Origin: Candidatus Sulfopaludibacter sp. SbA3
GTDB taxonomy: Bacteria > Acidobacteriota > Terriglobia > Bryobacterales > Bryobacteraceae
Assembly: GCA_945861625.1 (NCBI GenBank)
Contig: CAMAVI010000011.1
Coordinates: forward strand, 1-62,248
Direction of reading: 5' to 3'
Length of the DNA: 62,248 bases
The position numbers and the translations under genes are program-made. The notes below the pieces were generated by a model. The model had not been told where the DNA came from. It saw nothing but the letters and a program-made list of their open reading frames with translations, and ran no database searches. Shown here in pieces: positions 2,558-41,156 of the stretch; within the stretch, counting starts at the first letter, position 1; each line of letters starts with the position of its first letter.

Positions 2558-3436
2558 TCACCGGAAAAAGATGTCGCTGGCCCAAAACACCAAGAATATC
2601 ACGCTCACGTAGCCGTTCATGGTGAAGAACGCCGCGTCCACGCGGGACAGATCGGCGGGCCATACCAACTTGTGTTCCCACAGCAGGATTCCGGCCACTG
2701 CCGCGATACCGGCCCAGGCCAAGCCACCCAGCGCGAAGGCGTGCCCCAATATCATTAGGCACGCCAGCATTCCCACGTGTAGCGCCCGCGAAACCCACAA
2801 GGCTCCCGCGATGCCCAGGCGGCGCGGAATGCTGAACAGGCCGGCTTCCAGATCAAACTCGTAGTCCTGGCACGAGTAGATGATGTCGAACCCCGCTGTC
2901 CATAGCGTCACCGCCGCGGTCAGCCAAAGAATGCGTGCATCTAAAGATCCGCGCACGGCGATCCAGGCCGCCGCCGGGGCGATGCCCAGCGAAAATCCCA
3001 GCACCAGATGGGACAGCGACGTGAAGCGCTTGGTGTACGAGTAGAACATGACGATCCCCAGCGCCAAAGGGGCCAGCTTAAAGCACAGGGGATTCAACGC
3101 CAGCGCGGCATACAGAAAAACAGCGCTCCAGAACGCGATGAATCCCCAGGCGAAGCCGCGCGTCAGCGATCCCGCCGGCAGATGCCGCGTCTTTGTCCGT
3201 GGATTCCGGCCGTCGATATCCGTGTCCAATACGCGGTTGAAGGCCATCGCGGCGGAACGCGCCGCCACCATGGCCAGCACAATCCAGCCCAGTTTGGACC
3301 AGATGCCATCGCGGGAAAAGCCCGCATCCCGCCACGCCAGCAAGGTTCCGGTAAGAGCAAAGGGCAGGGCAAATACGGAGTGCTCAAACTTGATCATCTC
3401 CAGCGTAAGCCGGACGCGTTTGAAAAAAGAACTCAA
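2558..3436 (-). CDS. mqnP: UbiA-family prenyltransferase, probably MqnP of the futalosine pathway
   Basis: This 292-residue integral membrane protein has about eight hydrophobic segments. It carries both Asp-rich prenyl-diphosphate motifs of UbiA enzymes: N67xxxD71xxxD75 (NRVLDTDIDGRNP) and a second DYEFDLEAG block. UbiA enzymes transfer a polyprenyl chain to an aromatic acid at the membrane; next to mqnE the acceptor is most likely the 1,4-dihydroxy-6-naphthoate branch. The start is TTG at 3436. It is chosen because TAGAAT sits exactly 6 nt upstream (minus strand), matching a recurrent leaderless pattern here, and there is no Shine-Dalgarno sequence. The start codons of this gene and the divergent lipoprotein gene are only 17 bp apart. 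Confidence 0.8.
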   Translation of the reverse strand: MSSFFKRVRLTLEMIKFEHSVFALPFALTGTLLAWRDAGFSRDGIWSKLGWIVLAMVAARSAAMAFNRVLDTDIDGRNPRTKTRHLPAGSLTRGFAWGFIAFWSAVFLYAALALNPLCFKLAPLALGIVMFYSYTKRFTSLSHLVLGFSLGIAPAAAWIAVRGSLDARILWLTAAVTLWTAGFDIIYSCQDYEFDLEAGLFSIPRRLGIAGALWVSRALHVGMLACLMILGHAFALGGLAWAGIAAVAGILLWEHKLVWPADLSRVDAAFFTMNGYVSVIFLVFWASDIFFR

Positions 3437-3441
3437 CCCAC

Positions 3442-3448
3442 TATTCTA
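3442..3448. promoter_or_regulatory. Overlapping divergent -10 elements for mqnP and the DUF192 lipoprotein gene
   Basis: The string CTATTCTAG contains TATTCT on the plus strand (3442-3447), 6 nt before ATG 3454, and TAGAAT on the minus strand (3448-3443), 6 nt before TTG 3436. Both predicted transcription starts fall on the start codon. The two -10 boxes share six base pairs, so simultaneous open complexes look impossible and the promoters should compete. Confidence 0.6.
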
Positions 3449-3453
3449 GGGGA

Positions 3454-3909
3454 ATGCGAATTCTGCTCGCCGTGGTTCTGGCTGCCGCTCTTGCCCTCTC
3501 CGGTTGCGGCTCGAACTCCAACGTCACGGACGAGATCGGGCTCACCATTGTCACCTTCCCCAATGGCACGAAGATCAATGCCGAAACCATGCGCGACGAC
3601 ATCGAACTGATTAAGGGTATGATGTTCCGCGAAAGCATGCCTGCTAGTCGCGGCATGCTGTTCGTTCATCCCGAGGAAAATATCTTCCATTACTGGATGT
3701 ACCAGACCAAGATCCCGCTCGATATCATCTGGATGGATCATGACCGCCGCATTGTGGAGATGTCGCTTGACACGCCTCCCTGCAAAGCCACTGCCGCCAA
3801 GGAGTGCACGAATTACGGCGGCAATTACAAGTCTAAGTACGCGTTGGAGGTCAACGCGGGGATCGCCAAGAAGAACGGCATCAAGACCGGTGATACTCTC
3901 GATTTCTAG
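3454..3909 (+). CDS. DUF192 lipoprotein
   Basis: The 151-residue product begins with a lipoprotein signal (MRILLAVVLAAALALSGCGS) with a lipobox at Cys18. The rest is a DUF192 domain: MMFRESMPASRGMLFVHPEE, then HYWMYQTKIPLDIIWMD, and the closing ALEVNAGIAKKNGIKTGD. DUF192 proteins are small beta-rich envelope or secreted proteins of unknown biochemical role. The start at 3454 fits the signal peptide and TATTCT-N6-ATG. The 3' end overlaps the convergent rfbD by 4 bp. Confidence 0.85.
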   Translation: MRILLAVVLAAALALSGCGSNSNVTDEIGLTIVTFPNGTKINAETMRDDIELIKGMMFRESMPASRGMLFVHPEENIFHYWMYQTKIPLDIIWMDHDRRIVEMSLDTPPCKATAAKECTNYGGNYKSKYALEVNAGIAKKNGIKTGDTLDF

Positions 3910-4796
3910 TTCTTCTCTAATTTTTTTTGGCGCCCGCGCGCCAGCAGATACAGGTCGATGGCCTGTTCAAGAGTGGGCATCGGGTCGATTCCCAGCGATT
4001 CCATTTTGGCGTTGGATAGCGCCGAATACTTTGGCCGCCGTGCCGCCGTACGGAACTCGCGCTCGTTGGTGGGCTTCAGCGGAGGATTGAGTCCCGCGGC
4101 CGCGAAAATTTTTGCGGCCCAATCGAACCAGGAAATCGGTGTTCCCCCGCCAATGTGGAACAGTCCTTGTGCGCCCCGCTCCACCAAATCCGCCGTCCGC
4201 GAGGCAAGCGCCGGCGCAAAAGTCGGCGAAGCTACGTGATCCTCTACAACCTTGATGGGCTGCCCGCCTTCGGCCAGGCGCAGCATCAGTTCGACAAAAT
4301 TGCCGCGCGCCGTATGCAATCCGCCGGGGCCATAGACGCCGGAAGTGCGGATGATCAGTGCCTGATCCAGGTACGCCCGCGCGTAGTATTCGCCCGCCAG
4401 CTTGGATACCGCGTAGGCGCCCTGCGGCCGCGGCATGTCCTGTTCGGTATAGGCTCGCCCGGCCGTGCCGTCAAAAACGTAATCCGTCGAAAAATGAACC
4501 AGGCGCGCGTCCACTTGGCGGCAGGCCACTGCCAGATTCCGCACGGCGAGACCGTTCACGGAATAGGCGGCCTGCGGTTCTTTCTCGGCGACGTCCACCT
4601 GATTGTAGGCGGCGGCGTTCAAGACAATGGCGGGATCGAACTTGGCCAGCGCCTGTTCCACTTGCGCGGCATCGCTGATATCAACGGTGCTGCGCTCAAA
4701 GCCCGCGACCTCAAAGCCTCTTTTGGCGAACTCGGTTTTGAGCTCCACGCCGAGTTGCCCGCCGCTCCCAAAAATGGCCACCCTATCTGTCTGCAC
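3906..4796 (-). CDS. rfbD: dTDP-4-dehydrorhamnose reductase
   Basis: This 296-residue extended short-chain reductase has a GSGGQLG dinucleotide loop, HFSTDYVFDGTAG, and the catalytic YxxxK in AYAVSKLAGEYYARA, followed by ...RTSGVYGPGG. RmlD/RfbD reduces dTDP-4-dehydro-L-rhamnose to dTDP-L-rhamnose for surface polysaccharides. The start is GTG at 4796, with CATAAT 7 nt upstream, just after the PilZ gene stop. The other rml genes are absent here. A methionine adenosyltransferase beta-subunit type homologue is the alternative. Confidence 0.8.
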   Translation of the reverse strand: MQTDRVAIFGSGGQLGVELKTEFAKRGFEVAGFERSTVDISDAAQVEQALAKFDPAIVLNAAAYNQVDVAEKEPQAAYSVNGLAVRNLAVACRQVDARLVHFSTDYVFDGTAGRAYTEQDMPRPQGAYAVSKLAGEYYARAYLDQALIIRTSGVYGPGGLHTARGNFVELMLRLAEGGQPIKVVEDHVASPTFAPALASRTADLVERGAQGLFHIGGGTPISWFDWAAKIFAAAGLNPPLKPTNEREFRTAARRPKYSALSNAKMESLGIDPMPTLEQAIDLYLLARGRQKKLEKN

Positions 4797-4804
4797 GTTC
4801 TCTA

Positions 4805-5140
4805 TTATGAACGAGCGGGAAAGGCTGTTTTTTGCGAATACGATTCTGGCGGATCGGAAGCGATCAGCGTTTCAAGAACACGCAACCCGACAGTGTAGGT
4901 TCCATCGGAATCCTGAACGCAGCGGCAGATTTCACCGAGCAGAAGCAGGCGGCGATCATCGACTTCGACGGAGGCGCCGCAGGGGACTGGAACTCTTGTG
5001 CGTAGCCGTATTCCGCTTCCCGAAACGTCTACCACTTCCGCGTCAATTGCCCGGCCCAGGCTGGGTCCCGCCATGCGGTCCAAGACTCTCAACGTAGCGG
5101 TCTTGATGACTCTAAGCCGCGATTCCCTGCGCCGTTCCAC
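4805..5140 (-). CDS. PilZ-domain protein
   Basis: This 111-residue protein fits a lone PilZ domain. It opens with the basic MERRRESRLRVIKTATLRV (an RxxxR-like c-di-GMP binding arm), continues AEVVDVSGSGIRLRTRVPVP (D/NxSxxG-like) and ends in a beta-strand region GTYTVGLRVLE. PilZ proteins bind cyclic di-GMP and act on motility, polysaccharide or regulation. The start is GTG, the only in-frame start after an upstream stop. It lies 8 bp before rfbD on the same strand, so co-transcription is likely. Confidence 0.7.
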   Translation of the reverse strand: MERRRESRLRVIKTATLRVLDRMAGPSLGRAIDAEVVDVSGSGIRLRTRVPVPCGASVEVDDRRLLLLGEICRCVQDSDGTYTVGLRVLETLIASDPPESYSQKTAFPARS

Positions 5141-5182
5141 CCTGGGCTCATCGGCTCAAAAGCTGGTTCCCTGAGCGAAAAG

Positions 5183-5572
5183 TCAGCGGTAATGGAAGGC
5201 TGCCCACACAACCAGCACAATGGCCGATGGCAGGGTGATCTCCAGCCACCTGCGGCGCAAGAAGCGCAGCCACGGCGCGTGTGTGCTCTCCAGGCCCCTC
5301 GCGGCGGCCGTTTCCACTGCCGGCGTTGAACGCGGGGCCAGCGATGCCGTCAAGCGGCTGCGCAGCCCTGAGGGTAGACCGTTCAACGCCTTAATGATTT
5401 CGGCGCGTCCGCGGCGGTCCGCAATCAGAATGGTGGCGGAATTGAAGCCGTTGGTTGACTCTTCCAATTCCTTGCGCAACGCGGGCGGGACCTCATTCAC
5501 CGAACGGAATATTTGAGTCCGGCCGCGCTTGGCGATGAAAATCGTGGATGTCTTGACGGTGACTCGATTCAT
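5183..5572 (-). CDS. Small protein with a C-terminal membrane anchor, unknown function
   Basis: I do not recognise this 129-residue protein. The N-terminal ~65 residues are polar with an alternating pattern (VTVKTSTIFIAKRGRTQIF, then SATILIADRRGRAEIIKAL), which looks like two short repeated beta-rich units. The last ~20 residues (ITLPSAIVLVVWAAFHYR) form one transmembrane helix, so it is probably tail-anchored. It starts 2 bp after the LysR stop codon, so the two are almost certainly one operon. Confidence 0.6.
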   Translation of the reverse strand: MNRVTVKTSTIFIAKRGRTQIFRSVNEVPPALRKELEESTNGFNSATILIADRRGRAEIIKALNGLPSGLRSRLTASLAPRSTPAVETAAARGLESTHAPWLRFLRRRWLEITLPSAIVLVVWAAFHYR

Positions 5573-5574
5573 CT

Positions 5575-6531
5575 TCAGTGTCCCAGCGGTGTCGTGCGCA
5601 CCACGGTCCGTTCCGCCGTCCCAGGCCGTTTAGGAGGCGCGGCCGCTTCCGTCACCGCGTGACTCATCGTGACTTCGATGAATCCCAGCGCGGCTTTGGA
5701 GAGGGCCTTGTCCTTCCGGTAGATCAGTCCAATCTGGCGGACCATCGGTTCCGGCCCCAGTCGCCTGGCCACCAGCCGTCCCGCGGCCACTTCCTCGCGG
5801 CAGTGCGATCCGGCGACGAAGCCCACGCCCAGTTCCGCCATCGTGAAGCGCTTCAGCATTTCCGTGGAATCCAATTCCATGGAGATGACGACCTGATCCT
5901 CCACCGGTTCCAGCCACGCGTTCAGCAGGCTCCGCGTGTGTCCCGCCTTGGGCAACAGCAATGGGATGTCCACCAGATCCTGCGGATTGATACGCTCTTT
6001 CTGCGCCAGGGGATGTCGGGGATGAAACAAGGCTTTTATCTCATCGGCGTGAATCTTGGCCACCTGTAGGCGCTTTTCCGTCACGGGGAGCTGCGTAATA
6101 CCGAAGTCAGCCTGATTGTCGACTACCGCCTCGACCACGCGCGACGTATAGGAACGGTCCACCAGAATCTGCACATTCGGGAAGCGCTTCTTGTATTCGG
6201 AAAACACGCGCGGCAGAACGTAAATGCAGGTGGCTTCGTTGGCGGCAATGACCAGTTCGCCGCGCGGCACGCGCTCCAGTTCATTGATGGAATCCTGCGC
6301 GCGCCGCTTGAGATCCAGGATCTGTTCGGCGTATTCGGCGAAGATGTGCCCGGCGGGCGTGAGGGCGATCTTGGTGCCCAATCGCTCAAACAGGGGAGCG
6401 GTCATTTCTTGCTCCAGTTGGCGCACCTGCGCGCTTACGGCCGGCTGGGTCCGGAAACAGGATTGCGCGGCTTTGGAGAAGCTCTTCAGGCGGACAATTT
6501 CCAGAAACGTATGGAGCTGATCGAGGTCCAT
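5575..6531 (-). CDS. LysR-family transcriptional regulator
   Basis: The 318-residue protein starts MDLDQLHTFLEIVRLKSFSK. Its N-terminal winged helix-turn-helix includes RTQPAVSAQVRQLEQEM and residues 1-60. A linker helix is followed by a periplasmic-binding-like effector domain at ~90-295 (RGELVIAANEATCIYVLP). Its layout resembles CbbR/CysB-type members, but the effector cannot be read from the sequence. The divergent TIGR03790 gene starts 74 bp away and is the natural first candidate target. TAGGAC lies 6 nt before the ATG, one base off the leaderless motif. Confidence 0.85.
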   Translation of the reverse strand: MDLDQLHTFLEIVRLKSFSKAAQSCFRTQPAVSAQVRQLEQEMTAPLFERLGTKIALTPAGHIFAEYAEQILDLKRRAQDSINELERVPRGELVIAANEATCIYVLPRVFSEYKKRFPNVQILVDRSYTSRVVEAVVDNQADFGITQLPVTEKRLQVAKIHADEIKALFHPRHPLAQKERINPQDLVDIPLLLPKAGHTRSLLNAWLEPVEDQVVISMELDSTEMLKRFTMAELGVGFVAGSHCREEVAAGRLVARRLGPEPMVRQIGLIYRKDKALSKAALGFIEVTMSHAVTEAAAPPKRPGTAERTVVRTTPLGH

Positions 6532-6605
6532 GACACTGTCCTAAGGGAGCTATCTCCAGTATCTCACCGTCTCCCGTGTCTGTATGGCTGCTAGGATAAT
6601 ATGCG

Positions 6606-7715
6606 ATGGTACCACGCACGATGTTACGCCTCATTCTGCCGGCGTGTTTGCTGGTTCCATTATCCGCGGGAGCGACGCCGGAGCAGGTGCTGGTGGTGGT
6701 GAATGACCATTCTCCACTTTCCGTGAGCATCGGCGAATACTACGCCCAGCGCAGGCACATTCCGCCCGGCAATGTCTGCCATCTTAAGGCCTCGGTCAAG
6801 GAAGACATTCCGCGCCAAGACTACGATCGCGACATCGCGCGCGCGGTGGGAGATTGTTTAACCCGCCGCGGGTTGCGCGAAACCGTCCACTACATCGTGA
6901 CCACGGCGGGCGTTCCCTTGCGGATTCCGGGTACGGGCGGCGTGAACGCGACTGGGGCTTCCGTCGACGGGGAACTGACCTTGCTTTATTCGGATTTGGC
7001 CGGCGGCCGGCCACACGCGCTTCCCGGCGGTATCCCCAATCCTTTTTTCGGGAAACGTGACGTACCGTTTTCGCATCCGCGGTTTCCCATGTATATGGTG
7101 ACGCGGCTGGCTGCCTACGATCTGGCGGGCGTGAAGGCAATGATCGACCGTTCCTTGCAGGCGTCCAATCGCGGCAAGTTCATCATTGATCTTTCGGATT
7201 CCAGCGATGCTGGTGGCAATGGCTGGTTGCGCAATGCAGCGATCCTGCTCCCCAAAGACCGCGTGGTCCTGGACGAGACGACCAAACCGGTCTACGATCA
7301 GGCCAACGTGATCGGCCAAGCCAGTTGGGGCTCCAACGACGCTAGCCGGAAGCGCCGTTTTCCCGGTTTCCACTGGCTCCCGGGAGGCATTGTGACCGAA
7401 TACGTTTCGACCAACGGCCGTACCTTCGCGCGCCCACCGGAAAGCTGGGTGCCCGGCGGCGATTGGATACTGCGGATCGGTTGGTTTGGTGGCTCGCCGC
7501 AGTCGCTGGTGGCCGATTCGATTTTGGAAGGCGCCACCGGCGGCTCCGGGCATGTCTACGAACCGTACCTGACTTTCACTCCGCGGCCGGATTTTTTGCT
7601 ACCTGCGTACTATCGCGGACGCAACCTGGCGGAAAGTTTCTACCTGGCGATTCCCGCGCTGAGCTGGCAGAACATCGTGATCGGCGATCCCTTGTGCTCG
7701 CTCGGGAAACCTTAG
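6606..7715 (+). CDS. TIGR03790-family secreted protein
   Basis: This 369-residue protein has a short signal peptide (LRLILPACLLVPLSAGA) followed by VLVVVNDHSPLSVSIGEYYAQRR and HYIVTTAGVPLRI, characteristic of TIGR03790 proteins, a family of unknown function in acidobacteria and some others. The start could be ATG 6606 (GATAAT 5 nt upstream) or ATG 6621, which gives a cleaner signal peptide. It overlaps the convergent acetyltransferase gene by 4 bp and is divergent from the LysR gene. Confidence 0.7.
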   Translation: MVPRTMLRLILPACLLVPLSAGATPEQVLVVVNDHSPLSVSIGEYYAQRRHIPPGNVCHLKASVKEDIPRQDYDRDIARAVGDCLTRRGLRETVHYIVTTAGVPLRIPGTGGVNATGASVDGELTLLYSDLAGGRPHALPGGIPNPFFGKRDVPFSHPRFPMYMVTRLAAYDLAGVKAMIDRSLQASNRGKFIIDLSDSSDAGGNGWLRNAAILLPKDRVVLDETTKPVYDQANVIGQASWGSNDASRKRRFPGFHWLPGGIVTEYVSTNGRTFARPPESWVPGGDWILRIGWFGGSPQSLVADSILEGATGGSGHVYEPYLTFTPRPDFLLPAYYRGRNLAESFYLAIPALSWQNIVIGDPLCSLGKP

Positions 7716-8224
7716 GCCGGACCCCTACTTTGCGGCTCGCCGGATAACCCTGTCCGTTTTATGACAAAGTCGTGTTCAAACAGCAGGTAGCCGCTGTCGT
7801 GCATTCCGCGGTTGAGGTAGGTGGCCTGGGCGCGCTGGTTGGCCGGGGCCACGTATAGGCGCAGGCCGCACACGTTCCCCGCCCGACTCGCGATTGACTC
7901 CACGTGCGAGTACAGCGCGCGGAACACGCCGCGGCCGCGGAACTCCGGCATCGTATAGACACTCTGGAACCACCAGAACACGCCATTGCGCCAATCCGAC
8001 CACTCATAGGTAATCATCAGTTGGCCCGCGCGCTGCCCGTTCACTTCCGCAATCACGTAAAAGCCCTTGGCGCCGTCCGCGAACACGGCCGCGACGCCCT
8101 GCCTCACGCGATCCGGGTCGAGTGTAATATCCTCCGATTCGCGCGCCAGCCGCAGGTTGCAGTCGACTACAAACGGTGCGTCGTCGAGCGCCGCTGGCCG
8201 GATGGTGATCGAAGAGGACTCCAT
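7712..8224 (-). CDS. GNAT-family N-acetyltransferase
   Basis: This is a 170-residue GNAT domain: SSITIRPAALDDAPFVVDCN at the N-terminus, FWWFQSVYTMPEFRGRGVF (acetyl-CoA loop R/QxxGxG/A), then RLYVAPANQRAQATYLNRG. Substrate unknown. The reading frame stays open to 8338, but the start at 8224 is preferred because TACTAT lies exactly 6 nt upstream and the extra 38 residues look non-coding. Confidence 0.8.
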   Translation of the reverse strand: MESSSITIRPAALDDAPFVVDCNLRLARESEDITLDPDRVRQGVAAVFADGAKGFYVIAEVNGQRAGQLMITYEWSDWRNGVFWWFQSVYTMPEFRGRGVFRALYSHVESIASRAGNVCGLRLYVAPANQRAQATYLNRGMHDSGYLLFEHDFVIKRTGLSGEPQSRGPA

Positions 8225-8230
8225 TGCTCC

Positions 8231-8236
8231 ATAGTA
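8231..8236 (-). promoter_or_regulatory. Leaderless -10 element (TACTAT-N6-ATG) of the GNAT gene
   Basis: On the minus strand TACTAT is followed by 6 nt and the ATG at 8224. This places the predicted transcript start on the start codon. Confidence 0.5.
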
Positions 8237-8291
8237 AACGTCACGGGATCCACTCTCAATTCTGGCCACTTGCGTGCACACTCCCCGGCAC

Positions 8292-8522
8292 ATGCCGGAT
8301 GTGTATCCTGACGGTTCCTCTGAAAATGCCCCGCCCAAACCTCACGGCCCCACCTTTGCCAACTGGTTCGGCGGCCTCTGGTGCCGCTTGTTCCACCGCC
8401 AAGTGATGTTGCCGATTCACGGTTATTATCAATGCCGTAGCTGCTTTCGCCCTATACTTTCGCCGGATACCAGTTTCGCTCGACACGGAGCGCCGCCAGG
8501 ACGATTCTCCTCCTCCCCCTAA
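8292..8522 (+). CDS. Small zinc-ribbon-like protein, unknown function
   Basis: The 76-residue frame contains FANWFGGLWCRLFHRQVMLP and IHGYYQCRSCFRPI, a CxxC with conserved aromatic residues. This resembles small conserved hypothetical proteins I associate with this phylum. The Pro/Ser-rich tail is low complexity. No convincing Shine-Dalgarno or -10 sequence precedes ATG 8292, and GTG 8274 is an alternative start. Confidence 0.45.
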   Translation: MPDVYPDGSSENAPPKPHGPTFANWFGGLWCRLFHRQVMLPIHGYYQCRSCFRPILSPDTSFARHGAPPGRFSSSP

Positions 8523-8560
8523 ACCTTAACGTCTCGCTCGTCGAACCGCGATAATGAAGT

Positions 8561-9890: not shown

Positions 9891-9897
9891 GCTTATC

Positions 9898-9903
9898 AAA
9901 GTA
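9898..9903 (-). promoter_or_regulatory. Putative -10 (TACTTT-N7-ATG) before the DUF423 gene
   Basis: TACTTT on the minus strand lies 7 nt before ATG 9890, one base longer than the usual spacing in this window. It could give the gene its own leaderless transcript within or after the hopanoid operon. Confidence 0.35.
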
Positions 9904-9909
9904 GCATCT

Positions 9910-24581: not shown

Positions 24582-24587
24582 TAGAAT
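24582..24587 (+). promoter_or_regulatory. Leaderless -10 (TAGAAT-N6-TTG) of the pepP-accB-accC operon
   Basis: TAGAAT is followed by 6 nt and TTG 24594. The same hexamer and spacing precede the TTG start of mqnP. Confidence 0.5.
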
Positions 24588-24593: not shown

Positions 24594-25679
24594 TTGAACC
24601 ATTTGAGCGAGATTGAACAGCGCCGCCAGGACGTCTCGGCGGGCCTGGCCGGGCTGAAAGCGGACGCCCTGCTGGTCACCTCGGCCGCCAACGTCCGTTA
24701 CCTTTCCGGTTTCGACGGATCGAACGGCTTGATTCTGCTGACGCCCACGGAAACCCACTTCTTCACCGATCCCCGCTACGAGATTGCCGCCAAGCAGAAC
24801 ATCACCGGCAAAGTCCACGTGGTCAAAGGCCCGCTGATTGCCGCGGCCGCCAAGATCATCCAACGCAAGCGGATCAAGCGGATCGGCTTTGAAAGCGGCT
24901 GGACGCAGTACGACGCCTATCAACGCCTACGGGACGCTCTGCCGCGCTCCCTGTCGCTGGTCCCCATCGGCCGCGTCATCGAAGAGCGCCGGATGATCAA
25001 GTCGGCCGCCGAGATCGATATCATCCGCCGTAGCGTCAATCTCAATTCAGAAGCTTACTCTCGCGTGCTCAAACGGATTCGCCCCGGTGTGCGGGAGCTG
25101 GATATCGCCGCTGAAATCGAGTTCCAAATGAAGGTGCTGGGCGCCGAGAAGCCCGCCTTCGATACTATCGTCGCCGCCGGACCCCGCGCGGCGCTGCCGC
25201 ACGCTCATCCCGGTTCTTACCGGCTGGCGGGCAATGAACTACTATTGATGGATATGGGCGCGAGCCTCCAGGGCTATTGCAGCGACATGACCCGCACGGT
25301 TCATCTGGGCAAGCCGCCGAAGAAGATCCGCGATTTGTATAACGCGGTGCTGGAAGCTCAGCTTGCCGGAATCGCCGCGGTCCGCCCCGGCGTAACCGCG
25401 GGGAAAGTGGATGCCGCCACCCGCAACGTCCTTAAGAAACACAAGCTCGACAAGGCCTTCGTTCACTCCACCGGGCACGGCCTGGGACTCGAAATCCACG
25501 AGCCGCCGCGTCTCGGCAAGAAAGATCCCACCAAGCTCGCGGTTGGCATGGCTATCACCATCGAGCCCGGCGTTTACATCGAGGGACTGGCCGGCATCCG
25601 CATCGAAGACACCGTCCTTGTAACGCAGAATGGTTGTGAAGTTTTGACGCCATCCTCGAAAGAGTTCATCGTTTTATAA
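24594..25679 (+). CDS. Xaa-Pro aminopeptidase (M24B)
   Basis: This 361-residue protein has a creatinase-type N-terminal domain (residues ~5-130) and a pita-bread metallopeptidase domain. Metal ligands are visible in LLMDMGASLQGYCSDMTRT (two Asp), HSTGHGLGLEIHE (His), ITIEPGVYIEG (Glu) and IRIEDTVLVT (Glu). It removes N-terminal residues before proline. The start is TTG 24594, supported by TAGAAT-N6. accB follows after 12 bp, an arrangement common in acidobacteria and Firmicutes. Confidence 0.85.
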   Translation: MNHLSEIEQRRQDVSAGLAGLKADALLVTSAANVRYLSGFDGSNGLILLTPTETHFFTDPRYEIAAKQNITGKVHVVKGPLIAAAAKIIQRKRIKRIGFESGWTQYDAYQRLRDALPRSLSLVPIGRVIEERRMIKSAAEIDIIRRSVNLNSEAYSRVLKRIRPGVRELDIAAEIEFQMKVLGAEKPAFDTIVAAGPRAALPHAHPGSYRLAGNELLLMDMGASLQGYCSDMTRTVHLGKPPKKIRDLYNAVLEAQLAGIAAVRPGVTAGKVDAATRNVLKKHKLDKAFVHSTGHGLGLEIHEPPRLGKKDPTKLAVGMAITIEPGVYIEGLAGIRIEDTVLVTQNGCEVLTPSSKEFIVL

Positions 25680-27912: not shown

Positions 27913-27918
27913 TATTCT
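27913..27918 (+). promoter_or_regulatory. Leaderless -10 (TATTCT-N6-ATG)
   Basis: TATTCT is followed by 6 nt and ATG 27925, the same hexamer and spacing as at the DUF192 gene. Confidence 0.5.
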
Positions 27919-27924: not shown

Positions 27925-28179
27925 ATGGTACGCTGCGAGATCGAAATCGACGACGATACGAATCGCCTGCTTACGGAACTTGCCTCCGAGTATGAAGGCG
28001 ATTTAAGCCTAGCCTTGGCGGATCTGGTTCACGCGCGCGAAGGGCTGGAAGAATACGCGGAGCGAAGCGAAGCGGCCCACGAAGATACGCTGTTCGCTCT
28101 ACGCGACAGATCCGAAGTGGATTTCCGGGAAGGGCGCACGGTTAGCTGGGAAGACGTCAAGTCTCGCAACGGGTTGTGA
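27925..28179 (+). CDS. Antitoxin-like small acidic protein
   Basis: The 84-residue protein has an N-terminal beta strand (MVRCEIEIDDDTNRLLTELA), a helical middle and a C-terminal FREGRTVSWEDVKSRNGL resembling toxin-neutralising tails of ribbon-helix-helix antitoxins. No intact toxin gene follows. A 43-codon frame overlapping its stop may be a decayed ParE/RelE-like gene. Function is inferred from length and tail only. Confidence 0.5.
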   Translation: MVRCEIEIDDDTNRLLTELASEYEGDLSLALADLVHAREGLEEYAERSEAAHEDTLFALRDRSEVDFREGRTVSWEDVKSRNGL

Positions 28180-31709: not shown

Positions 31710-31768
31710 AGAGATATTCCTCTGATTCTGAGTATACGCTTTTAGGACGCGTGCGGGGCCGGAAAGAT

Positions 31769-31774
31769 TACCCT
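31769..31774 (+). promoter_or_regulatory. Leaderless -10 (TACCCT-N6-ATG)
   Basis: TACCCT, 6 nt, then ATG 31781. This selects the 31781 start over the in-frame GTG 31751. Confidence 0.5.
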
Positions 31775-31780
31775 AAATGC

Positions 31781-32866
31781 ATGCACCGTGAAATGTTCCC
31801 TGTCACCAAGAACCTGGTCTACCTGAACCACGCAGCCGTGGCGCCCCTGTGCCTCCCGGCCGCGCAAGCCATGGAACGCCTGACCAGGGACGCCCTGGAC
31901 TGGGGATCGTTCCACTACGGCCAATGGCTGGATTGCTACGACGGCCTTCGCCGGGGGACGGCCCGGCTCATCAACGGCACCCCGGAGGAGATTGCTCTCG
32001 TCAAGAACACGTCCGAGGGGATCGCTACTGTTGCCATGGGGCTGGATTGGCGTCCGGGCGACCGCATCGTGGCCTTTGCAGAGGAGTTCCCCGCTAACCA
32101 GTATCCCTGGCAGAGGCTAGAATCCAAAGGAGTTAAGGTGGACTGGCTGCCCGCCACCGCGCCGTTGGACCGCATCGAACAAGCCGCCATAGGCGCTCGC
32201 CTGCTCAGTATCAGCTTCGTGCAGTTCCTGACCGGCTATATGGCCGATGTTGTGGGGATCGGTGAAATCTGCCAGCGCCACGGCGTCACATACTTTGTCG
32301 ACGCAATCCAAGGTCTGGGCGCGTTCCCCATTGACGTGCGGGCGGCGCATATTGACGCCCTCGCCGCCGACGGCCACAAGTGGCTCCTGGGACCAGAAGG
32401 TTGCGGTATCCTCTACATTTCACGCGAGCTTCAGGAGCGCGTCGAGCCGGTGGAATTTGGCTGGACCAACGTGGCGTCCCATAACGACTACGCCAGCCGC
32501 GACATGACCCTGCGCCCCGACGCCGGACGCTACGAGTGCGGAACGCTCAACACGGTTGGCTGCTTCGGTCTGCGCGCGGCGATCGACTTCCTGCTCGAAG
32601 CCGGCGTGGAAAACATAGCACCCGTAGTGCGCGGATTGGCCGGTCAGATTGTCGAAGGCGTTCGTAAGAAAGGCTATGAAGTGCTCGGCGAGCCCAATGC
32701 CGGCATCGTCAGCTTTCGCAAGGCGGGTGTGGACAGCGCTGCCCTTTGCGCCAGCCTGCGGGAGCGCTCCATCATTACGGCCCCGCGCGCCGGCTGGGTG
32801 CGTGCGTCACCGCACTTCTACATCACGCCGGAGGAAATCGCTAAGATGCTGGAGTTACTGCCCTGA
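31781..32866 (+). CDS. Class V aminotransferase (cysteine desulfurase / selenocysteine lyase type)
   Basis: The 361-residue PLP enzyme has LVYLNHAAVAPLCLPAAQAM at the N-terminus, VKNTSEGIATVA, VDAIQGLGAFPIDVR and the PLP lysine in AADGHKWLLGPEG. Candidate activities are cysteine desulfurase or isopenicillin-N-epimerase-like reactions; no partner gene (sufE, iscU) is nearby to decide. The start at 31781 is set by TACCCT-N6. Confidence 0.8.
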   Translation: MHREMFPVTKNLVYLNHAAVAPLCLPAAQAMERLTRDALDWGSFHYGQWLDCYDGLRRGTARLINGTPEEIALVKNTSEGIATVAMGLDWRPGDRIVAFAEEFPANQYPWQRLESKGVKVDWLPATAPLDRIEQAAIGARLLSISFVQFLTGYMADVVGIGEICQRHGVTYFVDAIQGLGAFPIDVRAAHIDALAADGHKWLLGPEGCGILYISRELQERVEPVEFGWTNVASHNDYASRDMTLRPDAGRYECGTLNTVGCFGLRAAIDFLLEAGVENIAPVVRGLAGQIVEGVRKKGYEVLGEPNAGIVSFRKAGVDSAALCASLRERSIITAPRAGWVRASPHFYITPEEIAKMLELLP

Positions 32867-32875
32867 CGGTGGCCT

Positions 32876-33061
32876 CTAACCGTGACCCAGATACATCAGC
32901 CAGCTCAGGCCGAAGATCGCGGCGAGGAAGTAGGCGAAGCAGCGGACGCCATAACGGAGCCGCTCGCGGTCAGTTCGTTTCGTAATTACGCCGAGTACCG
33001 CTGACGTGAACAGGGCGAACAAGAGCGACGCCTCAAAGTGAGATAAATTCATTTTGGGCAT
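32876..33061 (-). CDS. Small two-helix membrane protein
   Basis: The 61-residue product has two hydrophobic helices (EASLLFALFTSAVLGVI and FAYFLAAIFGLSWLMYLG) around a basic loop TKRTDRERLRYG. No family recognised. A leaderless signature (TAAACT-N6-ATG) supports it as a real gene. Its end lies 10 bp from the convergent aminotransferase gene. Confidence 0.65.
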   Translation of the reverse strand: MPKMNLSHFEASLLFALFTSAVLGVITKRTDRERLRYGVRCFAYFLAAIFGLSWLMYLGHG

Positions 33062-33067
33062 AGGGTT

Positions 33068-33073
33068 AGTTTA
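33068..33073 (-). promoter_or_regulatory. Leaderless -10 (TAAACT-N6-ATG)
   Basis: On the minus strand TAAACT is followed by 6 nt and ATG 33061. The identical arrangement precedes hicB at 40929. Confidence 0.5.
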
Positions 33074-33081
33074 GCAACGCG

Positions 33082-33480: not shown

Positions 33481-33485
33481 GGCCC

Positions 33486-33491
33486 ATTTTA
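33486..33491 (-). promoter_or_regulatory. Leaderless -10 (TAAAAT-N5-GTG)
   Basis: On the minus strand TAAAAT is followed by 5 nt and GTG 33480. Confidence 0.4.
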
Positions 33492-33506
33492 TCGCATCAT
33501 GAGGGG

Positions 33507-34361: not shown

Positions 34362-34380
34362 GACGGGATTCGCAACGCTA

Positions 34381-34479
34381 TTATTCAACCAGCATCTCCG
34401 CATGGCGAATTACCGCGACGCGGTCGTGCTTCCTGTCGAAAAATACCACGCTCAGGGGGCCGTCCTGGGCGGAGGTCAT
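34381..34479 (-). CDS. Putative 32-residue small protein with strong ribosome binding site
   Basis: The minus strand carries GGAGG (34486-34490) 6 nt before an ATG that opens 32 codons (MTSAQDGPLSVVFFDRKHDR, then VAVIRHAEMLVE-stop). A TATACT -10 (34529-34534) lies about 40 nt further upstream. No family recognised. The rest of the 34362-34584 gap shows nothing else. Confidence 0.35.
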   Translation of the reverse strand: MTSAQDGPLSVVFFDRKHDRVAVIRHAEMLVE

Positions 34480-34584
34480 CGCGCACCTCCAGCATGCACA
34501 AGCCTAGCAAGGCAAGGCGTATTACGTAAGTATAGAATTGCCCTTATTGGGATGCTGCCAAGTTGTAGTCATCACAGACGTAAA

Positions 34585-35829
34585 CTACAATCCCAGCTTC
34601 TTATCCAGCTCCGCTGAAACTGCCGCCAGGCGCTCCGGATTACGCATCAGGTTGCGGACGCCGTCGCTGCCGAAGTTCTCGTAAAGTGCGTCCACCGCGG
34701 CGAGCGCCAGCGAGTAAGCGACTCGCGCGCCCGCGGAATCGAGCTGCGACCAGCCCTGCTTCATTTGTTCGAGCTTGGGCAGTTGCCCGGCTTTCGCCAG
34801 GGCGGCGATCCGCGCCTTGGCCGCCGGGCTGAGCGCCGCTCCGGAAAGCTTTTGCGCCAGACCTTCGTGCAGCCAGGAAGGCCATTCGCCCAGCATCGCC
34901 AGGCAGGCGTGCGTGGTCTCATGGGCCAGCGTCTGTTCGGCTACCGCGTTCATCTCCTGCCCGTTCATCGCCGGGACACGGATGCGGCCGTCGAACTGGC
35001 CGCCGCTCCATTCGACGGCGTCGGTGGCTTTGCGGTACGCCTCGCGACTCTGCACGATGGTCACGATTTTTTCTTCCGCCGCGCAGCCCAACTGCGACGA
35101 TACACGCGCATAGGTAGCGTCCACCACCTTCACCATCGCGCGCGCCGTATCCACCGGAATCGTGCCGGAATCGTAGCGCAGAACCACTCGCACGCCGTAA
35201 AGTTTCTCGCTGCTTTGATCGTTGACCTGCTCGCGCTGCACCTGTTTATAGAGCTGTTCCAAGCCCGGATTGGGGGCCGCGTCCAGCGCTTCACGCCATA
35301 ATTCCAGCGCCTGCTTGGCTTCGTCGGAGCGCCAGGCGGCCACGCCGGCCAAGGCGAGCAGAGCCGGATCGCGGCGCTTCTTCAGTTCCGGTTCGAGCAG
35401 AGCCAGCGCGCGCGCGGGCTGGCCCAGTTCGATGGCCTGCTCGGCTTGCGCGAGGATGACTTTGGCCGACGCGGGCAAGGGGGACTGCCCGCTTGCGCCT
35501 TTCAACGCAGCCAGTGGCTGCGTGCCGCGCGCCGCGTGCAGCGCCGCGCTGGTGGTGACCCAGGCCGCTTCGCGCCGCAACTTGTCGAAGGAATTCAGAT
35601 CTTCAATCGCGGCGGAAGGCAGGTAACCTTCCACCCGCTTGCCGTCCATCTCGATGGCGACCTTATAGCAGGGAACACTTTCGCCGCTCAGGGCGAAACG
35701 CAGTTGAATGGGCGTGCCCGCCGTCAACGTGGCTACCGTCCGCGCGTCCGCCGCGCAGCCGCTCCGCAAAGCGGTGCCGTCTTGCTTGACGCTTGCCGAT
35801 AGTAACAGGAGTAGCGGGAGCAATCCCAT
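34585..35829 (-). CDS. Secreted peptidase-MA-like protein with TPR-like region
   Basis: The 414-residue protein has a signal peptide (GLLPLLLLLSASVKQ), an N-terminal beta domain, helical TPR-like repeats around 100-210 and a C-terminal gluzincin-like region with LAHETTHACLAMLGEWPSWL and HEGLAQ (HExxH plus downstream Glu). This matches the peptidase MA-like group, of which few members are characterised. The start has TATCGT-N6-ATG. Confidence 0.7.
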   Translation of the reverse strand: MGLLPLLLLLSASVKQDGTALRSGCAADARTVATLTAGTPIQLRFALSGESVPCYKVAIEMDGKRVEGYLPSAAIEDLNSFDKLRREAAWVTTSAALHAARGTQPLAALKGASGQSPLPASAKVILAQAEQAIELGQPARALALLEPELKKRRDPALLALAGVAAWRSDEAKQALELWREALDAAPNPGLEQLYKQVQREQVNDQSSEKLYGVRVVLRYDSGTIPVDTARAMVKVVDATYARVSSQLGCAAEEKIVTIVQSREAYRKATDAVEWSGGQFDGRIRVPAMNGQEMNAVAEQTLAHETTHACLAMLGEWPSWLHEGLAQKLSGAALSPAAKARIAALAKAGQLPKLEQMKQGWSQLDSAGARVAYSLALAAVDALYENFGSDGVRNLMRNPERLAAVSAELDKKLGL

Positions 35830-35835
35830 ATTTCG

Positions 35836-35841
35836 ACGATA
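35836..35841 (-). promoter_or_regulatory. Leaderless -10 (TATCGT-N6-ATG)
   Basis: On the minus strand TATCGT is followed by 6 nt and ATG 35829. Confidence 0.45.
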
Positions 35842-35887
35842 CGCCTAGTGTGCCTGGAAAGCGCTCCGGGGAAGACCTTAGTCCGGT

Positions 35888-37627: not shown

Positions 37628-37636
37628 GGATTGCGG

Positions 37637-38320
37637 TTACTTCGCGGCCAGCACGCAGTACTGCGCGCCCAGCGGCAGATGCGAGAAGAATTCTTCCGTT
37701 GGCCGCAGGAACGCCAGGGGCCGCGGGAAGTAGAATAAAGTCCAACTGTGCGGCGCGGCGATAAAGCCACCGGCGCGCACCAGGCGGCGGGCCTCGGGAA
37801 TGGAGAGAGGGATGGCATCGCGGTCGAAAGGGATGCGGCTCATTACCAGGCGCGTTCCCGGATTCCACGGATTATTTTCAAACAGCGCCAGATGCCCGCC
37901 GGGACGCAGTGCGCGATAGATAGACTCGATCGCGCCCACGCGCTGCTCCGGTTCGATGTGGTGGAATACGCCGTTGACGTAGCACAGGTCGAAACCATTT
38001 TCGTCCGCAAGTTCCGCCAGAGGGCGGAAGCGCACGCGGCCGGAGCCGTAACGTTCCGTTCCGTATTCCAGAGCCTTTTCGCTGGTGTCCACGCCAACGA
38101 TTTCCGCATGAGGGAATTTTTCGCTCAGATGCCGCGTCGCGGTTCCGATGCCGCAGCCGAAGTCCAGAATCCGCCGCGGCCGGAAATCGGGTGGCAGACG
38201 GGAAGGCAGGCTCTCGATGCGTCCACGGATGAAAAATTCCTGGCCTTCTCCGGACAAACGGATGCCCTGGTTGAGCATCTGGTTGTATTCGGCGCTGAGG
38301 TCAAACAAGGCTTCCGGCAT
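37637..38320 (-). CDS. Class I SAM-dependent methyltransferase
   Basis: The 227-residue protein has the SAM motif ILDFGCGIGTATRHLSEKF, an acidic residue in AEIVGVDTSEKALEYG, LCYVNGVFHHIEPEQR and ALRPGGHLALFENNPW. The substrate is unknown; between a GT2 and a GT39 gene it may modify a glycan lipid. It starts directly after the GT2 stop codon. Confidence 0.85.
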   Translation of the reverse strand: MPEALFDLSAEYNQMLNQGIRLSGEGQEFFIRGRIESLPSRLPPDFRPRRILDFGCGIGTATRHLSEKFPHAEIVGVDTSEKALEYGTERYGSGRVRFRPLAELADENGFDLCYVNGVFHHIEPEQRVGAIESIYRALRPGGHLALFENNPWNPGTRLVMSRIPFDRDAIPLSIPEARRLVRAGGFIAAPHSWTLFYFPRPLAFLRPTEEFFSHLPLGAQYCVLAAK

Positions 38321-39514
38321 CTATTTCTTCCTGAGGTCCTGCCAGTACGCGGCGCGTTCGCGCACCAAGTCCAGAACATAATCCAGCGAGCGAGTCACCA
38401 GCAGAACCGCCATCGCTGAAAAACAAGATGTCATCACGATGAACCGCGACCAGTGCTCGTAGGTGGATCCGGTTTCCAATCGTTCGAGGAAGCTGCCTAA
38501 CACCAGCGATCCGCCGGCGGCGGCCAGGACCGCGTTGACCGTCCAGAACCAGCCGCCCCGGAAAAATGTTTCCCAGGCTGAAGCCTTGCGCGATCCGACT
38601 TCTTCGGCGAGCGCAATTTCGATAATCCGTTTGCTCAGATAGCTGGCGCACACGCACAGCACAGCGCCGATTCCCAGTAAGTGACTTACCAGGAAGCGGT
38701 AGATCATCCATTCGAGCACGCGATGGTGCCGCAGATAGTAGACCGCCGGCGGGTACATCAATACGGCCGAAGAGGCCATCATCACCAGTGCGGCTGCATT
38801 GAGCGGACGGGAAGGCCGGTACAAGAACGCCGATTCCAGAATCACGCGCAGAAAGCGCAGCCCGTCCTTAATGACGCGCAATTTCGATTCGCCGACGCGC
38901 TCATGATAGGGCATGTCGACTTCGCCGATGCGCAACGCTCCCGACAGCATCGCCCGCGCGCTCATGGCCGGGGTGAAGTGCAGGCCGTCGGGCAAAGGAA
39001 ACAACCGGTTCAGACTGGAGCGCCGGACCACGCGCATGCCGCTGGCTGTATCGCGCACGCGGGAGCGCGCAAACAGGCTGAGCAGTGAAGCGAAGATGAC
39101 ATTTCCCACCCGGCGCAGCAGCGGCATTTCGCTCTTAGCGTTCAAGCGGCAGCCCAGCACTACGTCGTTATTGTTGTCGATGAGTTGATTGCAAAGAGGA
39201 GCGAAGAACTCCGGGTCGCAGGTGCCATCCGCGTCCAGGAACCCGAGAACGTCGGCGTCGGATTTCTGCCAAGCTTCCTTAATGGCCGCCCCGTAGCCCT
39301 GGTTTTGCGTGAATACGATGAGATTGATCAGATCGCCGTATTTGGCGGCGCGCTCGACGGTGCGGTCCGTGGAACCGTCGCTCACGACGGTGACTTCCAC
39401 TTCCGTTACAGCGGAGTGCTCCTTTATATAACGCTTGGCGGCCAGCGCGCGTTCAATGATGCTTTCTATGTTATCTTCTTCATTCAACGCGGGTATGGCA
39501 ATGCCTAGTTTCAT
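38321..39514 (-). CDS. GT2 glycosyltransferase with C-terminal membrane helices
   Basis: The 397-residue protein begins KLGIAIPALNEEDNIESIIE and has VTVVSDGSTDRTVE, a DxD motif in GFLDADGTCDPEFF and RDTASGMRVVRRSSL. Four hydrophobic helices follow after ~240. It resembles dolichol/undecaprenyl-phosphate sugar transferases that charge lipid donors for GT39/ArnT enzymes, which fits the GT39 gene two positions downstream. AGGAG lies 9 nt before ATG 39514. It is divergent from the pilin gene. Confidence 0.85.
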   Translation of the reverse strand: MKLGIAIPALNEEDNIESIIERALAAKRYIKEHSAVTEVEVTVVSDGSTDRTVERAAKYGDLINLIVFTQNQGYGAAIKEAWQKSDADVLGFLDADGTCDPEFFAPLCNQLIDNNNDVVLGCRLNAKSEMPLLRRVGNVIFASLLSLFARSRVRDTASGMRVVRRSSLNRLFPLPDGLHFTPAMSARAMLSGALRIGEVDMPYHERVGESKLRVIKDGLRFLRVILESAFLYRPSRPLNAAALVMMASSAVLMYPPAVYYLRHHRVLEWMIYRFLVSHLLGIGAVLCVCASYLSKRIIEIALAEEVGSRKASAWETFFRGGWFWTVNAVLAAAGGSLVLGSFLERLETGSTYEHWSRFIVMTSCFSAMAVLLVTRSLDYVLDLVRERAAYWQDLRKK

Positions 39515-39808
39515 CCGTGGGTCTCCTGGAGGCCGCTTTACTTCCAGTCCTTGCTATCGGCTCAATAACTTGGGAAGTTTAACCGCAGCGGCGCCGGGCT
39601 GCTTGCAACCCGCTTTCTCCCCGCAAGCGGGGGTACCGTACTAGTTCTAAGGGTCTGCAAGTACTTCAAAAAAAGGGTTTCTTAGACGTTTTCTGAGGGC
39701 AGACTAGGCCTAAACCCTGATTTAACGGAAGCCGGATTCACGATAAAGTTCTCGTAGCGACAGAGACAGTCGCCGAAGAGATTAGACGGAGAGGAAACTA
39801 GGAGACTC
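39515..39808. other. Divergent intergenic region, GT2 operon and Flp pilin leader
   Basis: No gene seen. It holds a GC hairpin CCCCGCAAGCGGGG (39619-39632) and a long-range inverted repeat AGGGTTT (39674-39680) / AAACCCT (39712-39718) in the likely pilin leader. The pilin ribosome binding site AGGAG lies just before 39809. Confidence 0.4.
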
Positions 39809-40000
39809 ATGAAAAACTTACTGCTTAAGCTGAAGATGATGAAGGATACCCGTGGTCAGGACCTCATCGAATACGCGTTGATGGCTGGCTTCGTTGCCGT
39901 TGCCGCTGGCGCGATCATGCCGGGCGTTGCGACGTCCATCAGCACGATCTTCTCGAAGGTCGCGTCCGTGATGGCCGCTGCGACCAACGCCGGTAGCTAA
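39809..40000 (+). CDS. Flp-family type IVb pilin
   Basis: The 63-residue prepilin has a basic leader MKNLLLKLKMMKDTRG, the prepilin-peptidase site G|QDLIEYALMAGFVAV (Glu at +5 of the mature protein) and a hydrophobic helix. Flp pilins form thin adhesion fibres assembled by Tad machinery. No tad gene is in the window, so assembly must come from elsewhere. An AGGAG site and a strong terminator mark an independent transcript. Confidence 0.85.
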   Translation: MKNLLLKLKMMKDTRGQDLIEYALMAGFVAVAAGAIMPGVATSISTIFSKVASVMAAATNAGS

Positions 40001-40020
40001 ATATCTACCTTTCGGCGACC

Positions 40021-40070
40021 GGAGGAACGGGCGGGCTGCGGCCTCAGCCCGTTCCTCCTCGCTTTTATTT
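40021..40070 (+). terminator. Rho-independent terminator of the pilin gene
   Basis: GGAGGAACGGG (40021-40031) pairs with CCCGTTCCTCC (40048-40058), an 11-bp stem with a 16-nt GC-rich loop, followed by GCTTTTATTT. Confidence 0.85.
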
Positions 40071-40127
40071 GTCCCCGCTATTCCCGCCCCGCGGATTCCC
40101 CCATCGTATTTCCCCTTTGACCCGTTC

Positions 40128-40133
40128 TATCCT
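40128..40133 (+). promoter_or_regulatory. Leaderless -10 (TATCCT-N6-ATG)
   Basis: TATCCT, 6 nt, then ATG 40140. The element lies downstream of the pilin terminator. Confidence 0.5.
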
Positions 40134-40139
40134 TGAAAA

Positions 40140-40808
40140 ATGCAGCAAGTACTGGTCTACGCCGATTCGCTGACGTGGGGCATCATCCCCGATTCCCGCC
40201 AGCGCTTACCGTTTGATGAACGCTGGCCCGGCGCACTCGAGGGGAAGCTCAGCGCCTCCGGACGGCGCGTGCGGGTCATCGAAGATTGCCTGAATGGCCG
40301 GCGCACGGTCTGGGAAGATCCGTTCAAGCCGGGCCGCAATGGGCTTCAGGGATTGCAGCAACGCATCGAGATCTGCTCGCCCTTATCGCTGGTGATTTTG
40401 ATGCTGGGAACCAACGACGTGCAGTACTGTCATCCATATAATGACGGATGGGCCGCCGGGCAGGGCATCGCGGCGCTGGTCCGCGAGATCCGCGTTGCGC
40501 CCATCGAGCCGGGCATGCCGGTGCCGCCCATACTGATCGTGTGTCCGCCCCGCATGAGCACTCCCAAGGGGCTTATCGCGGAGAAGTTTCGGGGCGCCGA
40601 AACCAGGTGCGAGGGCATGGCCGAGGCGTATCAGGAGGTTGCCGCCGCGCTGGGCTGCCACTTTTTCGATGCAAACACGGTAATCACCGCGAGCAAAGTG
40701 GACGGTGTCCATCTGGATCCGGATCAGCACCTGGCTCTGGGGGCGGCACTCGCCGGCGTTGTGGGGCCGCTGCTGCTGACCGCCGGTTCACAGGAACCTA
40801 TCACATAA
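40140..40808 (+). CDS. SGNH/GDSL-family hydrolase (arylesterase type)
   Basis: The 222-residue protein has SGNH blocks: VLVYADSLTWGIIP (nucleophile Ser; the usual GDS is ADS here), EDCLNGRRTVWEDPFKPGRN, LVILMLGTNDVQY and the Asp-His dyad in SKVDGVHLDPDQH. It is probably a cytosolic esterase, as no signal peptide is present. Substrate unknown. Confidence 0.8.
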   Translation: MQQVLVYADSLTWGIIPDSRQRLPFDERWPGALEGKLSASGRRVRVIEDCLNGRRTVWEDPFKPGRNGLQGLQQRIEICSPLSLVILMLGTNDVQYCHPYNDGWAAGQGIAALVREIRVAPIEPGMPVPPILIVCPPRMSTPKGLIAEKFRGAETRCEGMAEAYQEVAAALGCHFFDANTVITASKVDGVHLDPDQHLALGAALAGVVGPLLLTAGSQEPIT

Positions 40809-40928
40809 ACCCGTTCGTGACCGGGAGTTGCGCGCGAGTGAATTCATGCCCAAAAAACGTCACGGGAGTGAATCGGTAAACACTGTGCCGTTGCGGGTTC
40901 TATCCACTCGTGGCGTTAGCCAAGGAGC

Positions 40929-40934
40929 TAAACT
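40929..40934 (+). promoter_or_regulatory. Leaderless -10 (TAAACT-N6-ATG) of hicBA
   Basis: TAAACT, 6 nt, then ATG 40941. Confidence 0.5.
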
Positions 40935-40940
40935 AGAGAC

Positions 40941-41156
40941 ATGGCACGCCAGTTTGATGTCGTTATCGAGCGAGATGAAGACGGGCTGTACGTTGCCTCG
41001 GTACCCCAATTGCCAGGGTGTCACACCGATGGCACCTCGCTCGACGAACTCATGGTAGAGATTCGCGAAGCCATTGAGCTTTGCCTTGAAGTGGAAGGTG
41101 GGCAGCCGGCCAACTTGGAATTCGTCGGCATTCAGCGGGTCACAATCGCCGCATGA
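40941..41156 (+). CDS. hicB: HicB antitoxin
   Basis: The 71-residue HicB fold: FDVVIERDEDGLYVASVPQL, PGCHTDGTSLDELMVEIREA and a C-terminal strand FVGIQRVTIAA. It should bind and block the HicA toxin encoded next, and usually also represses the operon. hicA begins 4 bp before its stop (ATGA). The order is antitoxin first, opposite to the degenerate locus at 27.7 kb. Confidence 0.85.
   Translation: MARQFDVVIERDEDGLYVASVPQLPGCHTDGTSLDELMVEIREAIELCLEVEGGQPANLEFVGIQRVTIAA

Follow-up and report, generated by a model that had tools for sequence, protein, structure and literature searches.

TANNNT hexamers six nucleotides before start codons point to leaderless genes in a Bryobacterales genome

Bacterial genes with a TANNNT hexamer about 12 bp before the start codon, counted from its first T and read as the −10 box of a leaderless gene, were reported by Zheng et al. 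(2011; PMC3160421) in all three Acidobacteria genomes of their survey, where they made up on average 13.3% of genes (9.7-19.4). In Deinococcus-Thermus, TANNNT about 6-7 bp before open reading frames (ORFs) is reported, with experimental support, to serve leaderless genes as their −10 region (PMC12340547). Here we describe the same arrangement in a 62,248-nucleotide (nt) stretch of DNA from Candidatus Sulfopaludibacter sp. SbA3 (Acidobacteriota, Bryobacterales; contig CAMAVI010000011.1), hereafter the window, and in the genome around it. The hexamer peaks sharply 6 nt before the starts of genes that are mainly non-operonic, and its spacing is conserved in orthologues. We conclude that it is very probably the −10 element of the housekeeping sigma factor, with transcripts that would begin at the start codon or within 1-3 nt of it and would carry neither a leader nor a Shine-Dalgarno (SD) site.

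The class itself is already known, having been reported earlier for Acidobacteria. Our sites share with those of Zheng et al. the position of the hexamer and its interpretation, whereas conservation of spacing between Bryobacterales orthologues and divergent pairs of genes are seen here and not in the available part of that paper (PMC3160421). Conservation among homologues is also described for the Deinococcus-Thermus motif, which however precedes about 30% of ORFs there, compared with an excess of about 10% of non-operonic genes here, and the available text of that report contains no bidirectional or TTG case, unlike our data (PMC12340547). In the open-licence literature, which cannot prove absence, we found no paper on leaderless genes in Bryobacterales, only unrelated papers when looking for Acidobacteri- transcription-start mapping, and, for leaderless genes with bidirectional promoters, no bacterial leaderless pair apparent from titles among the matches listed. 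Two elements of the present case were likewise not found in print there: two head-to-head genes that share a symmetric −10 box and have their starts 18 bp from each other, and the conservation of TTG as start codon at this position.

The window is contig C11 of a 3.82-Mb genome in 174 contigs (GC 60.6%). We sampled 60 further stretches of 20 kb, giving 1.262 Mb with the window or 33% of the genome, drawn from the starts and middles of contigs C1-C37 rather than randomly, and reran a codon-usage-based gene caller, blind to upstream signals, over the full sample. A start was taken as non-operonic if its neighbour was divergent or if it lay at least 40 nt from a same-strand gene. Excluded before counting were 34 genes without an upstream neighbour in their stretch, genes with less than 130 nt upstream, and the 16S locus L021. 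With Nx denoting x nt between hexamer and start codon, the chance baseline was the mean TANNNT count per offset over N12-N44. An earlier note on this DNA had put the chance rate at one fixed position below 2% of starts and had proposed a genome-wide alignment of non-operonic starts; the measured rate is 7.1 of 547, or 1.3%, and the alignment, made on the sample, gave the peak that the note anticipated.

Of 547 non-operonic starts, 36 have TANNNT at N6, compared with a baseline of 7.1 (P 6e-15), with 8 at N5, 15 at N7, 17 at N8 and 16 at N9, a sharp positional peak just before the start codon of the kind that characterizes leaderless genes. The peak persists when the window is left out (31 of 516 against 6.7, P 4e-12) and the window taken by itself shows it too (5 of 31, baseline 0.45 per offset, P 8e-5). 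Only 5 of 323 operonic starts carry the hexamer at N6 (non-operonic versus operonic, P 4e-4), so that these genes, like the leaderless class, are mostly first or lone genes and not inside operons. Across the first 0.87 Mb of the sample, N6 occurs at 30 per 1000 in-frame start codons near gene starts, compared with 7 and 8 per 1000 out-of-frame ATG, GTG or TTG codons. The excess summed over N5-N9 amounts to 56 genes, 10.3% of the non-operonic genes in the sample, which would be an underestimate if start calls were wrong; "widespread", the earlier note's word, holds in the sense of a sizeable minority.

The same pipeline applied to 400 kb of each of three relatives found N6 in 6 of 170 non-operonic starts in the same genus (against 1.7, P 0.008), 7 of 173 in the same family (against 1.1, P 1e-4) and 5 of 146 in another family of the order (against 1.2, P 0.008), or 18 of 489 against 4.0 when pooled (P 2e-7). 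We also made a crude count over the whole genomes of 149 Acidobacteriota, comparing TANNNT-N5-H-ATG with the same pattern at N12, a single control offset in the same frame as N6; a reversed-pattern control was dropped for this count because TA becomes AT, and was judged less apt. N6 exceeded N12 in 129 of the 149 genomes and did so at P<0.01 in 77 of them; in our own genome the counts were 335 and 246 (ratio 1.36). The highest ratios were in families f17 (3.7-fold, one genome), f16 (2.5-fold, three genomes) and f24 (2.4-fold, 13 of 13 genomes significant); f22 (1.02, nine genomes) and f49 (0.89, three genomes) showed no signal and served as comparison groups.

The earlier note had singled out ten TANNNT-N6-start sites and two near variants in the window. 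Read by eye in the printed sequences, each of the ten hexamers is separated by exactly 6 nt from its named start codon, and both variants are placed as described:

3443..3448, minus strand: candidate −10 box TAGAAT, 6 nt before TTG 3436 of a UbiA gene (2558-3436; Pfam UbiA, E 3e-50)
3442..3447, plus strand: candidate −10 box TATTCT, 6 nt before ATG 3454 of a DUF192 lipoprotein-like gene (3454-3909; Pfam DUF192, E 5e-28)
8231..8236, minus strand: candidate −10 box TACTAT, 6 nt before ATG 8224 of a GNAT gene (7712-8224; Pfam)
24582..24587, plus strand: candidate −10 box TAGAAT, 6 nt before TTG 24594 of an M24 aminopeptidase gene (24594-25679; Pfam)
27913..27918, plus strand: candidate −10 box TATTCT, 6 nt before ATG 27925 of an 84-amino-acid (aa) ORF with no Pfam match
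31769..31774, plus strand: candidate −10 box TACCCT, 6 nt before ATG 31781 of a class V aminotransferase gene (31781-32866; Pfam)
33068..33073, minus strand: TAAACT before ATG 33061, judged a coincidence
35836..35841, minus strand: candidate −10 box TATCGT, 6 nt before ATG 35829 of a gene of 414 aa (34585-35829) with no Pfam match
40128..40133, plus strand: candidate −10 box TATCCT, 6 nt before ATG 40140 of a GDSL hydrolase gene (40140-40808; Pfam)
40929..40934, plus strand: TAAACT, 6 nt before ATG 40941 of a HicB-like antitoxin gene (40941-41156; Pfam), ambiguous
33486..33491, minus strand: near variant TAAAAT, N5 before GTG 33480
9898..9903, minus strand: near variant TACTTT, N7 before ATG 9890

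The codon-usage caller takes five of the ten starts (3454, 8224, 24594, 31781 and 40140), placed 3436 and 35829 at internal starts (3397 and 35769), and missed the three short ORFs at 27925, 33061 and 40941. The note's remark that none of these genes has a good SD sequence is almost right: eight sites lack a four-base core (GGAG, GAGG, AGGA or AAGG) in −20..−1, whereas 8224 has GGAG at −6, very near the start codon, and 40941 has AAGGAG at −19..−14, rather distant from it; it is because of this AAGGAG that we call the 40941 site ambiguous.

A strict distance from box to start with free letters in between would be required by a leaderless gene and not by a leadered one. Three orthologue sets comprised 30 loci each, one per genome, from 119, 106 and 116 matching genomes; 15 loci each were used for 33061 and 35829; and the DUF192 set was 110 loci minus 12 duplicates and 55 without a DUF192 match. 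Orthologues support the N6 sites at 3436, 35829 and 27925. Upstream of the UbiA gene, 10 of 12 same-genus relatives have TANNNT 5-9 nt before the aligned in-frame start (three at 6, one each at 5 and 7, two at 8 and three at 9), and the start is TTG in 10 of 12. At 35829, same-genus relatives with 50-85% protein identity keep N6 in 11 of 14 cases, with one at N5, one at N7 and one without the box; when the loci are anchored on the first in-frame ATG or GTG, 12 of 15 have T at −12, 12 have A at −11 and 13 have T at −7, the bases between being variable. The 27925 ORF is present in three of 23 genus genomes, its own included, and both relatives (86% and 40-41% identical) keep N6.

At 24594 an in-frame TTG with TANNNT is kept in all 12 same-genus relatives, 11 at N6 and one at N7. 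At 31781 three relatives retain N6 at the equivalent start; if every in-frame start from −90 to +60 is admitted, TANNNT falls at N5-N7 in 24 of 29 loci, in most of them at N7 from a start that lies more upstream, and N12 is over-represented in these loci too (12 of 30). For 8224 the single homologue examined (L183, from another family, 51% identical) likewise reads TANNNT-N6-ATG, and for 40140 and 40941 there was no homologue among the relatives' DNA examined. For the DUF192 gene, 43 distinct divergent UbiA-DUF192 loci were compared, counting that of the window: 41 have TANNNT at N5-N9 from an in-frame start, 30 of them at exactly N8 and 8 at N6; 26 of the 43 share the motif TAyNATnnTA-N4-start, with 17 different N4. 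As a separate observation, a near-invariant TACCATTTTA-N4-ATG precedes DUF192 genes family-wide (for example L089, L097, L102 and L103) and exceeds the length of a plain −10 box.

The N6 set has G at −1 in 1 of 36 starts, compared with 118 of 512 other starts (P 0.003), and A at −5 in 19 of 36, compared with 122 of 512 (P 5e-4), so that the bases beside the start codon look like an initiation site. Before masking of the hexamer positions, an SD core in −20..−4 occurs in none of the 36 and in 136 of the 512 others. The 16S rRNA tail, GGATCACCTCCTTTCT, carries a normal, intact anti-SD, and both modes of initiation should therefore coexist. At least four TTGACA matches at 16-18 bp were found for 5 of 36 N6 starts, no −35 box being apparent in the set, and a whole-genome search for TTGAC with TANNNT and ATG gave 53 places versus 36 for the reversed control.

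A spacing of N6 sets the hexamer at −12..−7, the canonical position of a −10 element for a transcript start at +1. From the sequence we infer a promoter, a transcript start and a mode of initiation: the TANNNT box would be the −10 element of a promoter used by the housekeeping sigma factor, RNA polymerase would begin transcription on the start codon's first base or 1-3 nt away, and the ribosome would take the start codon from the 5' end of a leaderless messenger RNA (mRNA) that has no SD site. Alternatively, the boxes may be real promoters whose transcripts keep a leader of 1-10 nt and are thus short-leadered rather than strictly leaderless, and we give this variant a real though minority chance. 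The counts at N7, N8 and N9 (15, 17 and 16 against 7.1) speak for it, as do the usual N8 spacing of the DUF192 orthologues (30 of 43) and a purine at −2 with T at +1 in 13 of 13 loci at 24594, which would suit a start at −2; the peak is nevertheless sharpest at N6, with 36 starts compared with 8-17 at N5 and N7-N9.

It is very unlikely that TANNNT marks something other than a promoter, such as AT-rich unstructured start regions or in-frame stops (TAA or TAG at −12) that bound the ORF. A hexamer at N6 shares the frame of the start codon, and TAA and TAG boxes there are indeed in-frame stops, but a stop effect should recur at every in-frame offset, whereas N3, N9 and N12 have 5, 16 and 8 cases compared with 36; moreover, most boxes in the N6 set begin with TAT or TAC, which are not stops, and neither the final T at −7 nor the drop of G at −1 would be explained. 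Chance matches picked by eye account for 33061, as shown below, and may account for 40140 and 40941, but they are a very improbable explanation of the set: starts beyond the window show the excess as well (31 of 516, baseline 6.7), and this cannot stem from picking within it, which already refutes chance for the class as a whole.

Several results weigh against the leaderless reading or narrow it. At 33061, which we reject as a leaderless site, the box is present in none of 14 relatives, where the start directly abuts the upstream stop codon; the gene itself is conserved in 21 of 23 genus genomes, and the relatives lack the box because the gene is in an operon behind its upstream neighbour. The earlier note's leaderless interpretation of its sites loses this member; as a whole it is supported by the N6 peak and by the spacing held by orthologues. 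The 3436 layout occurs in few loci beyond the genus and that of 24594 in only 1 of 17 loci outside it, and orthologue counts are not independent, owing to common ancestry. There is no excess of −35 elements, the best TTGACA match averaging 2.44 of 6 versus 2.26 of 6 at TANNNT inside genes. With the hexamer positions masked in the controls, the SD core stands at 34 of 512 versus 0 of 36 (P 0.16), which is not significant. In the crude whole-genome count our own genome shows no N6 excess over the reversed-pattern control (335 versus 345), and in the phylum count 72 of 149 genomes have no N6 excess at P<0.01 and three have a deficit at that level.

At bacterial bidirectional promoters with symmetric −10 elements, the distance between the divergent starts is most often 18 bp, and distances of 10 and 23 bp are frequent too (PMC10268837, PMC12825309). 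The two leftmost sites of the window have just this geometry:

3434..3456, both strands: candidate shared symmetric promoter CAA-cccac-TATTCTA-gggga-ATG, predicted transcript starts 18 bp apart

Only 17 bp separate the start codons of 3436(−) and 3454(+), and TATTCT on the plus strand and TAGAAT on the minus strand overlap by five bases. One symmetric box, TATTCTA, would thus serve both strands and yield two leaderless genes from a 17-bp intergenic stretch. The word "leaderless" occurs nowhere in the two papers on bidirectional promoters, whereas here both predicted starts coincide with start codons. The 18-bp layout recurs in L076, L078 and L209 (L209 being from the same genome as L076), the TTG side lies 3 nt further out in L077, L079 and L080 than in the window pair, and elsewhere in the family the symmetric box persists with the UbiA start at varied distances.

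A second head-to-head pair was noticed at L016, 5852(−)/5875(+) (G000:C17), where TAAACT-N6-GTG and TACACT-N6-GTG have overlapping boxes (CACAGAATCAGTTTACACTCTTATCGTG); its 23-bp spacing, like the 18 bp of 3436/3454, matches a published distance (PMC10268837, PMC12825309). TANNNT at N5-N7 from both in-frame starts was also seen in the divergent pairs L022 15069/15105 (36 bp), L010 15966/16002 (36 bp), L034 6947/6998 (51 bp) and L189 14023/14042 (G049, 19 bp). As a general class, bidirectional leaderless pairs are rejected, the 18-bp pattern occurring at 12 sites in our genome and its reverse at 9. Of the 140 divergent pairs sampled, the window pair and L059 fit in both frames; L059 does so about 100 nt from the called starts, which leaves the window pair as the sole case at called starts or a nearby alternative. 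A further 18-bp match at 40921-40943 was taken as chance, with no minus-strand ORF of at least 90 aa starting there. We keep the bidirectional reading, as a prediction, for 3436/3454 and, at 23 bp, L016 only.

TTG starts raise a different question. In mycobacteria, leaderless mRNAs are translated without an SD site, with transcription beginning at the start codon, and leaderless starts require a 5' ATG or GTG, CTG and TTG being ineffective (Shell et al. 2015, PMC4633059); a review describes non-AUG codons as much less efficient in E. coli (PMC9031893). Here, by contrast, TTG occupies the box-adjacent position throughout whole clades. All 13 genus loci of 24594 start with TTG and lack an ATG between −90 and +60, and where the spacing is N6 the box begins with TAA or TAG, an in-frame stop four codons upstream; the start therefore cannot lie further upstream. 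These 13 loci all have a purine at −2 and 12 of them a pyrimidine at −1, so that a two-base leader opening with G or A and an mRNA starting strictly with UUG are equally possible. Genome-wide, the TTG excess at N6 in in-frame scans is weak (own genome 9 against a mean of 5.7, G006 4 against 1.3, G049 1 against 0.3 and G005 1 against 1.0), and the suggestion of TTG at leaderless starts draws on two gene families. We offer only tentatively, and would not bet on, the combined proposal that this lineage initiates at UUG on mRNAs that begin with this codon or 2 nt before it, contrary to the mycobacterial AUG/GUG rule, and that symmetric −10 boxes yield two head-to-head leaderless mRNAs selected via strict two-sided spacing.

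These results concern how genes start in a large and little-cultured group. SD-seeking gene callers will misplace such starts, and our own caller misplaced 3436 and 35829. The TTG loci are concrete cases for a poorly understood rule, namely which start codons a leaderless mRNA accepts, and the 17-bp intergenic promoter that apparently serves two genes is a compact test object. The gain is thus a careful confirmation of a known class together with two sharper questions.

Two side observations concern the wider distribution of such sequences. Families f24, f17, f16, f45 and f56 have N6/N12 ratios of 2.3-3.7, far above the 1.36 of our own genome, and these lineages may rely more heavily on leaderless genes. 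Within G000, one 39-base promoter-like stretch occurs at four places (C32:35962, C79:16241, C115:10016 and C147:6004), and three of the four copies lie within about 105 bases of a contig end, a pattern as expected of what would be a repeated mobile element that breaks the assembly.

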